Below are positions 27 through 9,509 of a stretch of 35,445 bases of DNA, in pieces. This DNA is from Myxococcota bacterium (GTDB lineage Bacteria > Myxococcota_A > UBA9160 > UBA6930). Under the pieces are notes generated by a model, which had not been told where the DNA came from, made no database searches, and was given only the letters and a program-made list of their open reading frames with translations. The stretch lies in assembly GCA_030065975.1 (NCBI GenBank), contig JASJCN010000038.1, positions 1 to 35,445 of the forward strand, read 5' to 3'. Each line of letters starts with the position of its first letter. Within the stretch, counting starts at the first letter, position 1. The position numbers were made by a program, and so were the translations under genes.

Positions 27-653
27 TCAGGCAGGGTCGGCCTCGCTCGCGCGGTCGACCAGGCGTCGCAGCCCCTCGAGCCGGCTCTTCTCCTCCGAGG
101 CATCGGGTTGGAGCAGAGCCAGCACCAGGATGCCGTCGAGCGCCGCCACCAGGGCCTGCGCTTGCTGCCGTGCGGGGCCTTGCCCGTGGCCGATCTCCAG
201 GAGCGCCCGCTCGAGCTCGCCTTCGAAGCGCGCGTGCAGGCGGAACACGGGCGCCATCAGCAGCGAGGCCGCGGTCTCCGATCCGACCAGCCAGCCCACC
301 AGGGTGCGGATCGTCTCCCGATGGTCGGTCACCGTGTTCTGGTAGATGTCGACCAGCGAGTGCAGCCGGGCCACGGCCTGGCCCTCGGCGAGCTCGGCGT
401 CGAGCAGCGCCTCGAAGGGCCGGAGGATGCGGTGGAAGGCCTCGCGGAAGAGCCCTTCCTTGTCATTGAAGTGCCAGAACGCCGCCGAGGTGCTCACGCC
501 CGCGCGGCTCGCGATGGCCGCCACGCTGGTGCCCTCGTAGCCCCGGCTCGCGAACAGCTCGACGGCCGCCTGGATGATCCGCTCCTGGGTCTCTTCCTTG
601 TCGCGCCGGCGGGGCGCCCCCGCGCGGCCTCCGGCCGAGCCTTCGTCGCTCAT
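27..653 (-). CDS. TetR/AcrR family transcriptional regulator
   Basis: N-terminal HTH TQERIIQAAVELFASRGYEGTSVAAIASRAGVSTSAAFWHFNDKEGLFREAF is typical of TetR. Confidence 0.93.
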   Translation of the reverse strand: MSDEGSAGGRAGAPRRRDKEETQERIIQAAVELFASRGYEGTSVAAIASRAGVSTSAAFWHFNDKEGLFREAFHRILRPFEALLDAELAEGQAVARLHSLVDIYQNTVTDHRETIRTLVGWLVGSETAASLLMAPVFRLHARFEGELERALLEIGHGQGPARQQAQALVAALDGILVLALLQPDASEEKSRLEGLRRLVDRASEADPA

Positions 654-733
654 GCCAACCCCCGCAGCGCGCAGCTCATGCCACCCCCACGCAGCGCGCA
701 GCTCATGCCACCCCCACGCGGCGCGCAGCTCAT
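650..733 (-). CDS. Candidate 27-aa repeat peptide MSCAPRGGG-MSCALRGGG-MSCALRGLA, ATGA-coupled at both ends
   Basis: ATG 733-731 overlaps the stop of the upstream gene (TGA 732-730); its own stop TGA 652-650 overlaps the TetR ATG 653-651; read directly from sequence. Confidence 0.45.
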   Translation of the reverse strand: MSCAPRGGGMSCALRGGGMSCALRGLA

Positions 734-744
734 GCCACCCCCCG
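664..744. repeat. 27-bp tandem repeat, 3 copies (first two identical)
   Basis: gcagcgcgcagctcatgccacccccac at 664-690 and 691-717; near-identical copy at 718-744. Confidence 0.95.
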
Positions 745-1605
745 CACGCCGAGCCAGGTGCCCGCCGCGATCGCCAGGCGCCGGCGTCGCGACAGCCGCA
801 GCGACTCGCCCAGACACGGGAAGCCCCGGGACTGCAAGGTGTCCAGCAGGTCGCGATAGATGGCGCCCATGGCGTGAGCCGGGCGCAACGAGCGGCGCGC
901 CGCGTCGGGAAGCGCGCGGTGGGCCCGCTCGTAGCGGATGCGCGCCCGCTCGGCGTAGAGGGCGAGCAGCAGCCGCACCTCCTCGGTCATGCGCCGCTCG
1001 AGCAGCAGCTCGGGGTCCACGCCCAGGCGGTCGAGGTCCTCGCGCGCCAGGTAGATGCGGCCACTGGCGGCATCCTCGCCGACGTCGCGCAGCACGTTGG
1101 TGAGCTGCACGGCGATCCCGAGATCGGTCGCATAGCGTCGCACCGCCTCGTCCTCGAAGCCGCGGATGCCCACGATGATCAGCCCCACCGTCGATGCCAC
1201 CCGGTAGCAATAGCGCTCGAGATCCTCGAAGCGTTCGATCCGACCCCCCGTCAGATCGAATTCGACGCCGTCGAGGAGCTCGTCGAAGAAACGCTGCGGA
1301 ATCGGGAAGCGCGAGACCGCGTCGCCGAGGGCGATTCCCACCGGACTCTCGGACTTCCCGAGGTAGGCGTCGACGAGCTCCGCTCGCCACCGCGAGAGGA
1401 TCGCCCCGCGATCTCCGCGGATGGCCGGATCGTCGGCGATGTCGTCGGCCATCCGGCAGAACGCGTAGACGGCGTGGAGTGCGCGCCGCTGCTCCTGCGG
1501 GAACAGCCAGAATGCGGCGAGGAAGCTCGAGCCGCTGGCGCGCGTCACGCCCGCGCAGTGGGCGTAGGCCTGCTCGATGGAGAGCGGTGCGGCCGGCTCA
1601 GCCAC
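730..1605 (-). CDS. Squalene/phytoene synthase family protein (HpnC/HpnD/CrtB-like)
   Basis: Asp-rich motifs FCRMADDIADD and NVLRDVGEDAASGRIYLAREDL; GTG start at 1605 overlaps the dxs stop by 8 bp. Confidence 0.9.
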   Translation of the reverse strand: MAEPAAPLSIEQAYAHCAGVTRASGSSFLAAFWLFPQEQRRALHAVYAFCRMADDIADDPAIRGDRGAILSRWRAELVDAYLGKSESPVGIALGDAVSRFPIPQRFFDELLDGVEFDLTGGRIERFEDLERYCYRVASTVGLIIVGIRGFEDEAVRRYATDLGIAVQLTNVLRDVGEDAASGRIYLAREDLDRLGVDPELLLERRMTEEVRLLLALYAERARIRYERAHRALPDAARRSLRPAHAMGAIYRDLLDTLQSRGFPCLGESLRLSRRRRLAIAAGTWLGVRGVA

Positions 1606-3457
1606 GCGTCCCTCCTTCGAGCCAGGCTCGGGCTGCGCGAAGGATCCCGTCCGCGTCGATGCCGGCCGCAGCCGCCTGGGCGTCCTGGGCAGCGTGATCG
1701 ACGAAGGCGTCGTGCTGGCCGAGACGCCGCACGGGGACCGGCGGTGCGCCGTTTCCGGCATCGGCGAGCGCCTCGAGCACCGCACTCCCGAGCCCGCCGG
1801 CCAGGCCGTGGTCCTCGACCGTGAGGATGCGTCCGCACTGCTCGCCCATCCGCCGGATCAGGCTCGCGTCGAGGGGCTTCACGAAGCGCGCATCGATCAC
1901 GCCCGCTTCGATGCCCTCGGAGGCCAGACGTTCCGCTGCTTCGAGCGCCGGCAACACCGTCTTTCCCACGGCGACGACGGCAAGGTCCGAGCCTTCGCGC
2001 AGACACTCGCCGCGGCCGATCGGGAGCGGCTTGGGATCGGGCTCGAGGGCCACTCCGGGCGCCGCGCCGCGCGGGTAGCGGACCGCGAAGGGCAGGCCCG
2101 AGTCGACGGCCGCCGCGAGCAGCCCGCGGAGATCGTTCTCGTCCCGGGGCGCCGCCACGCAGAACCCCGGGATCATCCTCAGGTAGGCGAGATCGAGGAG
2201 CCCGTGATGGGTCGGGCCGTCGGCACCGACGAATCCCGCGCGGTCGATCGCGAAGGTCACGGGCAGCCCCTGCAGGGCGACGTCGTGCACCAGCTGGTCG
2301 AAGCCCCGCTGCAGGAACGACGAGTAGATCGCGCACACCGGCCGCAGCCCCTCGGCCGCGAGCCCGGCCGCGAACGTGACCGCGTGCTGCTCGGCGATGC
2401 CGACGTCGTAGACGCGATCGGGGTGGCGCGCCGCGAAGCGATCGAGCCCGGTGCCGTCGGGCATCGCGGCCGTGAGCGCCACCACGCGTTCGTCGCGATC
2501 GGCGAGATCCGCGAGCGCGTCGGCGAACGCCGCGGTCCAGCTCGGCGGCGAGGCGGACTTCACGCGCTCCCCCGTCTCGCGCTCGAACCGGGCCGTCGCG
2601 TGCCAGCGATACGGGTCGGCCTCGGCCGGCTCGAAGCCCTTGCCTTTGCGGGTCCGCACGTGCAGCAGGGTCGGCTCGGGCGCGTCCCGGAGCGCGCGCA
2701 CCGCCTCGAGCAGCGCGGGCAGATCGTGCCCGTCCACGGGCCCGCGGTACGCCACGCCGAGCGCCCGCGCGTAGTCGGCCACGCGTCCCGAGCGGTTCAG
2801 CCCGCCGACGTTGGGCGCGATCGACATGCCGTTGTCGTTGAACACGATGCGCACCGGCGTCCGCAGATCGCCGGCGTGGTTCAGGGCCTCGAAGGACATG
2901 CCCGCGGTGGCGGCGCCGTCGCCGATCACGGCCACGGCCTGGCGCCCCGACCCCGCGCGGCGCGCCGCCTCGGCCATCCCGAGGGCCGCCGAGACCGACG
3001 TGCCCGCGTGGCCGGCCCCGAACGCGTCGAAGGCGCTCTCCGTCCGACGCAGGAAGCCGGCCGGGCCGTCGGCGTGCTTGATGCGACGCAGGGCCTCCCG
3101 ACGTCCCGTCAGGACCTTGTGCCCGTACGCCTGGTGCCCGACGTCCCAGACGATGCGATCGTCTGGCGTGTCGAAGACGTGGTGCAGTGCAACGGTGAGC
3201 TCGACCGTGCCGAGACTCCCCGCGAAGTGGCCCCCGATTTCCGAGCCCACGTCGATCAGGTGGTCGCGCAGCTCCCGCGCGACCTGACGGAGCTCGTCGT
3301 CACGGAGTGTGCGAAGTCGGGCCGGATCCTCGATCGTCGACAGAAGGCGCAGGGTCGTCCCCCCAGACAAGCAGTGCGTCCCTGCACGAGCGCCAGGGTC
3401 GCCCCTCCTGCGACTCGTGCGTGCGGGATGATCGCGACTGCCTCCGGAGCGCGGCAA
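1598..3457 (-). CDS. dxs: 1-deoxy-D-xylulose-5-phosphate synthase
   Basis: GHAGTSVSAALGMAEAARR, AVIGDGAATAGMSFEALNHAG, DVGIAEQHAVTFAAGLAAEG; only TTG starts available (3457, or more likely about 3370). Confidence 0.95.
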   Translation of the reverse strand: MPRSGGSRDHPARTSRRRGDPGARAGTHCLSGGTTLRLLSTIEDPARLRTLRDDELRQVARELRDHLIDVGSEIGGHFAGSLGTVELTVALHHVFDTPDDRIVWDVGHQAYGHKVLTGRREALRRIKHADGPAGFLRRTESAFDAFGAGHAGTSVSAALGMAEAARRAGSGRQAVAVIGDGAATAGMSFEALNHAGDLRTPVRIVFNDNGMSIAPNVGGLNRSGRVADYARALGVAYRGPVDGHDLPALLEAVRALRDAPEPTLLHVRTRKGKGFEPAEADPYRWHATARFERETGERVKSASPPSWTAAFADALADLADRDERVVALTAAMPDGTGLDRFAARHPDRVYDVGIAEQHAVTFAAGLAAEGLRPVCAIYSSFLQRGFDQLVHDVALQGLPVTFAIDRAGFVGADGPTHHGLLDLAYLRMIPGFCVAAPRDENDLRGLLAAAVDSGLPFAVRYPRGAAPGVALEPDPKPLPIGRGECLREGSDLAVVAVGKTVLPALEAAERLASEGIEAGVIDARFVKPLDASLIRRMGEQCGRILTVEDHGLAGGLGSAVLEALADAGNGAPPVPVRRLGQHDAFVDHAAQDAQAAAAGIDADGILRAARAWLEGGTRG

Positions 3458-3463
3458 GCAAAA

Positions 3464-3495
3464 CTACTGACCGAAGCGGGCCGAACGGTCAGTAG
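3464..3495 (-). terminator. 10-bp perfect inverted repeat followed by TTTT on the minus strand (terminator or operator)
   Basis: ctactgaccg (3464-3473) / cggtcagtag (3486-3495), 12-nt loop; minus strand continues TTTTGCTTGCC. Confidence 0.45.
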
Positions 3496-3579
3496 CCGCG
3501 GTCCGTAGCCGCGACGCGGGCCTGCCGGTCGAACGAGTCCGGTCGAACGGGTCCGTCGACCGGTTGCCTGGACGCGCGG

Positions 3580-8309: not shown

Positions 8310-9509
8310 GTGTCGCTGCCCACGCTTCCGGCCGAGGCTGCGCGCACGCTGCTGCTGGATGGGGGCGGGCTGCTCGAAGACCCGGGCGGCCGCTGTGGTC
8401 CGGCCCGCGTCCGCAAGCGGATCCAGGGCCTCGGCTTCGTGCAGGTCGACTCCATCAACGTCCTCGAGCGCGCCCACCACCAGACCCTGCAGAGCCGCCT
8501 CGACGGCTACCGACGCGAGCACCTGCAACGGCTGCTCGAGAAGGACCGCGCGCTCTTCGAGCACTGGACCCACGACGCCTCGATCATCCCGCTCGAGTGG
8601 TTCCCGTACTGGCGCCATCGCTTCGCGGCCGTGCAGCGAAGCCCGCGCTTCGAGCGCTGGATGACCCGCAAGCTCGGGCCCGACGCCGATCGGGTGATCC
8701 GCCGGGTCGCACGGCGCATCGACCGTGAAGGCCCGCTCATGACCCGCGACTTCGAGGACCACCGGGAAGGCCCGCGCACGGGCTGGTGGGACTGGAAGCC
8801 CGAGCGGGCGGCGCTCGAGCTGCTCTGGCGCATCGGGCGGATCTCCATCAGCGGCCGGCGGGAGTTCCACAAGGTCTACGACCGGACCGATCGCGTGTTC
8901 CCCGGCGCCCTCTCCGGTCGCCGCCCCTCGGCGGCGGCCCACCGCGACTGGGCCTGCCGCGAAGCGCTCAAGCGGCTCGGCGTCGCGACCCCTCTCGAGA
9001 TCGCGCGCTTCTTCGAGGCGATTCCCGTGGCCGAGGCGCGCGCCTGGTGCCAACGCGCCGCGCGCCGGGGCGCGTGCATCGCCGTGGAGGTCGCCGCGGC
9101 GGACGGTACCGATCCCCGCCCGGCCTATGCGCTCCCCGACTGGGAGCGCCGCGTCCGCCGGGCGCCCTCCCCGCCCGACCGCATGCGCATCCTGAGCCCC
9201 TTCGATCCGGTGCTCCGCGATCGCGAGCGCGCGAAGCGCCGCTTCGGCTTCGAGTTCCGCATCGAGTGCTTCGTCCCGGCGGCGAAGCGGCGCCACGGCT
9301 ACTACGTGACGCCGCTCCTCGACGGCGACCGCCTGGTGGGTCGACTGGATCCCCGCTTCGACCGCAAGCGAGGCGTGCTCTCGGTGCAGCGCGTCTTCTG
9401 GGAGGACGGGATCCGCGAGACCCGCGAGCGCGGTCGGCGGCTCGACGAGGCCCTCGACCGCTTCGCAAGGCAGATCGGCGCGACCTCCTTCGAACGGCCC
9501 AGGAGCTAG
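8310..9509 (+). CDS. YcaQ-like winged-helix DNA glycosylase family protein (HTH_42)
   Basis: LGFVQVDSINVLERAHHQTLQSRL...ALFEHWTHDASIIPLEWFPYWRHRF, PFDPVLRDRERAKRRFGFEFRIECFVPAAKRRHGYYVTPLL. Confidence 0.88.
   Translation: MSLPTLPAEAARTLLLDGGGLLEDPGGRCGPARVRKRIQGLGFVQVDSINVLERAHHQTLQSRLDGYRREHLQRLLEKDRALFEHWTHDASIIPLEWFPYWRHRFAAVQRSPRFERWMTRKLGPDADRVIRRVARRIDREGPLMTRDFEDHREGPRTGWWDWKPERAALELLWRIGRISISGRREFHKVYDRTDRVFPGALSGRRPSAAAHRDWACREALKRLGVATPLEIARFFEAIPVAEARAWCQRAARRGACIAVEVAAADGTDPRPAYALPDWERRVRRAPSPPDRMRILSPFDPVLRDRERAKRRFGFEFRIECFVPAAKRRHGYYVTPLLDGDRLVGRLDPRFDRKRGVLSVQRVFWEDGIRETRERGRRLDEALDRFARQIGATSFERPRS

Follow-up and report, generated by a model that had tools for sequence, protein, structure and literature searches.

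Tandem copies of a stop-start overlap between a squalene/phytoene synthase gene and a tetR gene of a Myxococcota bacterium, with similar arrays at other gene junctions

The window, meaning the whole stretch of 35,445 nucleotides analysed here, is one contig of a Myxococcota assembly (5.54 Mb in 369 contigs, 85.5% complete). Near its start, the following features are found:

27 to 653, minus strand: TetR-family regulator (PF00440, E=3.9e-18), which starts in the array's final ATGAGC (ATG at 653-651)
648 to 746, minus strand: tandem array of three units (27, 27, and 26 bp) and partial copies
650 to 733, minus strand: mini-ORF of 27 codons, MSCAPRGGGMSCALRGGGMSCALRGLA, with in-frame ATGs at 733, 706, and 679
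730 to 1605, minus strand: squalene/phytoene synthase, HpnD-like (PF00494, E=1.3e-68), whose stop TGA (732-730) lies in the first ATGA
1598 to 3400 (start approximate), minus strand: dxs, 1-deoxy-D-xylulose-5-phosphate synthase (TIGR00204, 696 bits), the upstream gene of the operon
3467 to 3492, no strand assigned: palindrome CTGACCG-N12-CGGTCAG upstream of dxs, the sole exact copy in the assembly

The tetR start at 653-651 is backed by an alignment with the TetR proteins of relatives, and the synthase reaches 275.5 bits against the HpnD family (TIGR03465), slightly below the cut-off of 278.6. The start of the window (positions 1-40) has 32 bp in common with the end of contig C253 (L058) of the same genome, including the tetR stop, while the window contig departs from C253 in its last ~7 bases. 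Since C253 begins with hpnC, the two contigs probably abut, joining tetR to hpnC, and the operon order is most likely dxs, hpnD, array, tetR, hpnC, hpnE, SHC.

The motif ATGAGC occurs on the minus strand at 733, 706, 679, and 653, giving spacings of 27, 27, and 26 bp, and every unit of the array combines a G-rich, Shine-Dalgarno (SD)-like stretch with GGC-ATGAGC. TRF reports 3.7 copies over 648-746 with a score of 166, whereas 40 dinucleotide shuffles of the whole 35-kb window reached at most 83, so that the array stands far above shuffled sequence. The original prediction gave the sequence, the coordinates, the ORF, and both overlaps correctly; it described three 27-bp units, but the spacings are not all 27. 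The diverged fourth copy that it suspected at the tetR start is borne out, with the tetR ATG inside the last ATGAGC of the array. It is the final spacing of 26 that brings the mini-ORF stop onto the tetR ATG; had this spacing also been 27, the peptide and TetR would be fused.

The copy number could be an assembly artefact, given the 369 contigs and a longest exact repeat of 30 bp inside the array. However, the whole array is only 99 bp long, its end units differ distinguishably, and similar arrays are present in separately assembled genomes, making this explanation extremely improbable.

The mini-ORF is joined to both neighbours by an overlap of the NTGA/TGATG kind known from termination-reinitiation coupled pairs. 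Its ATG (733) shares bases with the synthase TGA (732-730) in an ATGA at 733-730, and its stop (652-650) shares bases with the tetR ATG (653-651) in an ATGA at 653-650. The predicted SD-like pairing before each ATG amounts to -13.2 to -14.2 kcal/mol at ATG1-3, with -14.2 kcal/mol at ATG1, and to -9.8 kcal/mol at tetR; the distance from the G-rich SD to the ATG is short, about 4 nt. As 78% of 27-codon stretches in the window (71.5% GC) are open, the open frame of the mini-ORF is by itself no evidence. The peptide matches no Pfam or NCBIfam family and no plasmid, and no Rfam element was found.

The open frame with its three in-frame starts might encode a functional 27-residue repeat peptide, or slippage on the G-runs might yield an N-terminally extended TetR, since a single added base in the last unit would join peptide and regulator in one frame. 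The lack of a family match and of conservation, a peptide sequence set by the DNA repeat, and the unrelated peptides encoded by the arrays at other junctions described below speak against a functional peptide, and we consider both variants quite improbable. The 27-residue peptide is probably without function.

We compared the locus with Myxococcota and "deltaproteobacterial" metagenome genomes. In 17 of the 18 named related loci, the stop of the synthase shares bases with the following start (ATGA or GTGA), which marks the ATGA at 733 as the ancestral junction. The gene after the synthase in the relatives is mostly idi2, encoding a type 2 IPP isomerase (TIGR02151, 356 bits), or in some cases hpnE; behind an idi2 in this place, tetR is usually next. 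A strong idi2 is found in 22 of the 24 synthase-bearing genomes of the order, the exceptions being the source genome and G061. Judged by this gene content, idi2 has been lost from the source genome and tetR has taken its place; at 85.5% completeness, idi2 could lie in the missing part of the assembly, but not at its usual position. In G061 (L066), idi2 has been lost a second time from the same operon, and tetR stands behind the synthase at a greater distance, with neither overlap nor array.

The array is not conserved: it is found in one genome only, and none is seen in relatives, which carry idi2 or hpnE at that place. The original prediction had looked to relatives with the same gene pair for the repeat. 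They literally lack it, but they also lack the direct synthase-tetR overlap, because idi2 normally lies between synthase and tetR, and the missing repeat thus leaves the idea of a relay unrefuted.

The source genome also lacks the spacer before tetR that holds the palindrome CTGACCG-N12-CGGTCAG in several relatives. Six exact copies of this palindrome occur in the related loci (285 kb) and the window together, against none in the reversed control. All six lie upstream of dxs or tetR, in relatives before dxs and/or between idi2 and tetR, and this placement suggests that the palindrome is probably the operator of the hopanoid-operon TetR. A short tandem repeat, CCGGTCGAACGAGT (2.6 copies by TRF), lies at 3525-3559, slightly upstream of the operator region of dxs.

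The last unit ends in CTG CGG GGG TTG GCA TGA (LRGLA*) and the synthase in GTG CGG GGG GTG GCA TGA (VRGVA*), two ends that are close in sequence and in the same codon phase. This likeness fits a 26-bp duplication followed by a one-base change and further copying, and the unit is likely derived from a 26-bp segment composed of the synthase tail, the overlap, and ATGAGC. The spacer bases of the unit alone show no significant similarity to the synthase tail. The duplication of an initiation site, which the original prediction had offered as one interpretation, is correct, and no other part of its reading is as well supported.

A search with the array DNA led to an epimerase gene pair of G062 (84% match across 49 bp), where a start is doubled at an NTGA junction. 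A pattern search pointed to a P450-SDR pair in the source genome (two 23-bp units) and to trpG-trpD in the sister genome, where one 32-bp unit copies the trpD start. A sample of 2.28 Mb, drawn largely from G001, the sister genome, was searched for tandem copies across NTGA junctions, and the contexts of phylum-wide pattern matches were inspected as well. The sample holds 234 strict NTGA junctions, and nine of its 222 arrays with a period of 18-80 bp lie on such junctions, two of these being later excluded as doubtful. Altogether, 14 clear arrays on NTGA junctions were found, the window array included. They are listed here with their unit lengths in bp and with the outcome for a ribosome that restarts at each overlap (relay, the downstream start is reached; in frame, a fusion results):

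hpnD-tetR (window), units 27/27/26, relay
trpG-trpD, unit 32, relay
nuoA-nuoE, unit 29, relay
prfA-prmC, units 26/26, relay
secY-adk, units 36/35, relay
histidine kinase-response regulator, unit 26, relay
P450-SDR (source genome), units 23/23, relay
adjacent gene pair with Gfo/Idh-type product downstream, units 29/29, relay
cofE-cofD, units 32/32, relay
T2SSE-family gene and neighbour, units 27/27/26, relay
hpnC-hpnE, unit 71, relay
BatD-like lipoprotein gene, units 27/27, in frame
hisH-lipoprotein gene, units 24/24, in frame
epimerase pair, unit 27, in frame

Most of these gene pairs were checked against Pfam, the BatD, lipoprotein, epimerase, and PilT-like labels being assigned by eye. The unit sequences are unrelated between loci, and the unit lengths range from 23 to 71 bp. 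Many units consist of the tail of the upstream gene and the head of the downstream gene, for example, the trpD head MSVTAALE, the cofE tail DQDLYA, and the Gfo head MSDPLRV. The original prediction proposed that a relay may tune TetR expression; nothing in the window array is specific to TetR, as the same kind of array sits between unrelated genes.

Several loci deserve a description of their own. The essential pair secY-adk (L303, about 9269-9357, G001:C11) has a 36/35-bp array with a relay minicistron of 24 residues. In prfA-prmC, encoding release factor 1 and its methylase (L302, 3744-3817, G001:C9), two minicistrons of nine codons each are chained by ATGA. The T2SSE-family pair (L248, G311:C470), which is unrelated to the window genes, shows the identical 27/27/26 layout and encodes a three-repeat peptide of 27 residues. 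At L203 (G247:C61:1090-1181, minus strand), several 14-bp units each form a ATGAGCGAGAGAGC-type mini-ORF (MSERA*), and these are chained by ATGA; this locus was dropped as a junction array, having no upstream gene before the downstream gene. L214 (31 bp) and L243 (25 bp), with units at 1 mod 3, do not resemble gene junctions when read in context, and L338 and L259, with downstream frames of 7 and 9 residues, were excluded from the 14 as doubtful junctions.

The array could instead be a dispersed mobile repeat inserting at NTGA sites, similar to the MIRUs that Supply et al. reportedly described from mycobacteria in 1997. The architecture is shared, a small ORF being coupled to its neighbour at -4 nt spacing (PMC12548453), and the match at the G062 epimerase pair (84% over 49 bp) points the same way. 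In the assembly, however, the 15-mer GGGGGTGGCATGAGC has no second site even with one mismatch allowed, and the 23- to 71-bp units of the other arrays are unrelated and built from local genes. Across 80 genomes, the doubled GGCATGAGC is no commoner than its reversed control; three of its four matches outside the window array are gene junctions. The dispersed-repeat reading is thus largely refuted, and we regard it as very improbable.

The lengths of the units bear on whether ribosome hand-over matters. The path of a restarting ribosome reaches the downstream start in 11 of the 14 arrays and runs into an in-frame fusion in three, and it is broken in none. Non-junction arrays with a period that is not a multiple of three are split into 21 at 2 mod 3 and 18 at 1 mod 3, a split against which 11 relays out of 11 give P=0.0011. 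As equal thirds seemed too generous a null, microhomology nulls (4-8 nt of homology) were computed; they give P values of 0.006-0.033, or 0.009-0.045 with the window array omitted, for only 14 arrays, some of them from the motif search and with coding calls by GC3 bias. Under the harshest null, the result is marginal. Furthermore, the composite arrays 27/27/26 (twice, in unrelated genes) and 36/35 end in a closing unit that restores the overlap. The frame pattern supports, without proving it, selection on ribosome hand-over.

These lengths also have to be weighed against neutral tandem duplication, in which overlaps are safe sites since both proteins stay intact at any length, the mini-ORF is inconsequential, and tetR uses its own SD. 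The missing conservation, an open frame that is expected at the GC content of the window, and the SD-like site of tetR (-9.8 kcal/mol) are all compatible with this, and coding-phase microhomology at intact junctions already favours 0 and 2 over 1 mod 3. It accounts less readily for the absence of relay-breaking arrays among the 14, given that non-junction arrays fall about equally into 1 and 2 mod 3, and for the overlap-restoring last unit of all three composite arrays. We therefore consider purely neutral duplication rather unlikely.

The explanation that we favour, and hold to be probable, is local duplication of a stop-start overlap, retained where ribosomes are still handed on and recurrent in Myxococcota. 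As relatives suggest, idi2 and the spacer before tetR would have been lost, leaving tetR directly behind the HpnD-like synthase with an ATGA overlap. A 26-bp segment with the synthase tail, the overlap, and the first bases of the next gene would then have been duplicated in tandem, with one-base changes and more copying leading to the present 26/27-bp units. Since ATGA is present in each unit, the first copy still holds the end of the synthase and the last copy the beginning of tetR, with a minicistron in between. A ribosome ending the synthase may restart at ATG1 with the help of the SD, or fresh ribosomes may enter at ATG1-3; they would translate at most 27 codons before terminating on the tetR start, where they would begin again. 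The peptide would be a by-product of a ribosome-delivering minicistron, and a short ORF that merely delivers ribosomes is a recognised idea (PMC12548453). Thirteen of 14 tested overlapping gene pairs were translationally coupled (PMC6728339), and coupling drops 3- to 10-fold as the spacing reaches about +40 nt (PMC12548453), so that, if there were no relay, weaker coupling would be expected across the ~76 nt that separate the tetR start from the synthase stop. The translational relay of the original prediction gains indirect support from the recurrence at other junctions and from the fact that lengths breaking the relay are absent. The anatomy of the array, the difference in idi2, the recurrence, and the frame pattern are observed, whereas the order of events, translation of the mini-ORF, and any effect on TetR dose are inferred.

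In general terms, stop-start overlaps would tolerate tandem duplication, with selection purging the lengths that break hand-over. A more tentative proposal, possible but somewhat short of probable, is that the stop-start overlaps of Myxococcota are recurrent sites of local duplication yielding minicistron relays, even at essential pairs such as secY-adk, that selection on hand-over shapes the unit length, and that the outcome is a translational control adjustable by copy number and not a MIRU-like mobile repeat. The array is of interest less as a TetR device than as an example of a process that recurs. NTGA is the commonest overlap between adjacent operon genes, and whether reinitiation underlies coupling is a matter of debate; the arrays at secY-adk, prfA-prmC, trpG-trpD, and other pairs are natural experiments on ribosome hand-over. 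If hand-over matters, lengths that break the relay should be missing, and they are absent in this small sample (n=14). The arrays also suggest that short translated ORFs can be born by a single mutation with neither neighbour harmed, and that repeat number may alter the dose of a downstream regulator. In open-access full text, we found no account of stop-start overlaps being recurrently duplicated in tandem by a local process.

Among known systems, the array is similar to termination-reinitiation coupling at NTGA (Huber et al. 2019, PMC6728339; reviewed in PMC12548453), with -4 nt overlaps at both ends of the mini-ORF and an SD-like sequence before each start. It differs from NTGA-coupled pairs in interposing a very short third cistron that arose from tandem duplication. 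With mycobacterial MIRUs, it shares tandem units between two genes and a small ORF in the same direction that overlaps both neighbours. MIRUs likewise carry a small ORF coupled by a -4 nt overlap, and they are regarded as mobile elements inserted at start codons (PMC12548453); the senX3-regX3 MIRU has units of 77 and 53 bp, both 2 mod 3, with a strain-variable make-up (PMC4213456). However, MIRUs are a dispersed, apparently mobile 77/53-bp family, whereas the present arrays have units of 23-71 bp, are locus specific, and derive from the flanking genes. The window units measure 26-27 bp instead of 77 or 53 bp and lie at one place in the assembly instead of in dispersed, alignable copies, and the array is not classed as a MIRU because this defining dispersed family is absent. 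Bicistronic design leaders and other ribosome-delivering short ORFs (PMC12548453; PMC5995908) also have a short translated leader whose stop overlaps the target start, and the window array has such a short ORF with its own SD (-13 to -14 kcal/mol) ending on the tetR start. It differs from these leaders in lying inside an operon behind a full gene, in being repeated, and in having several in-frame starts. By analogy with these systems, the best reading is that the array may work like bicistronic leaders and MIRUs, though it is no dispersed element.
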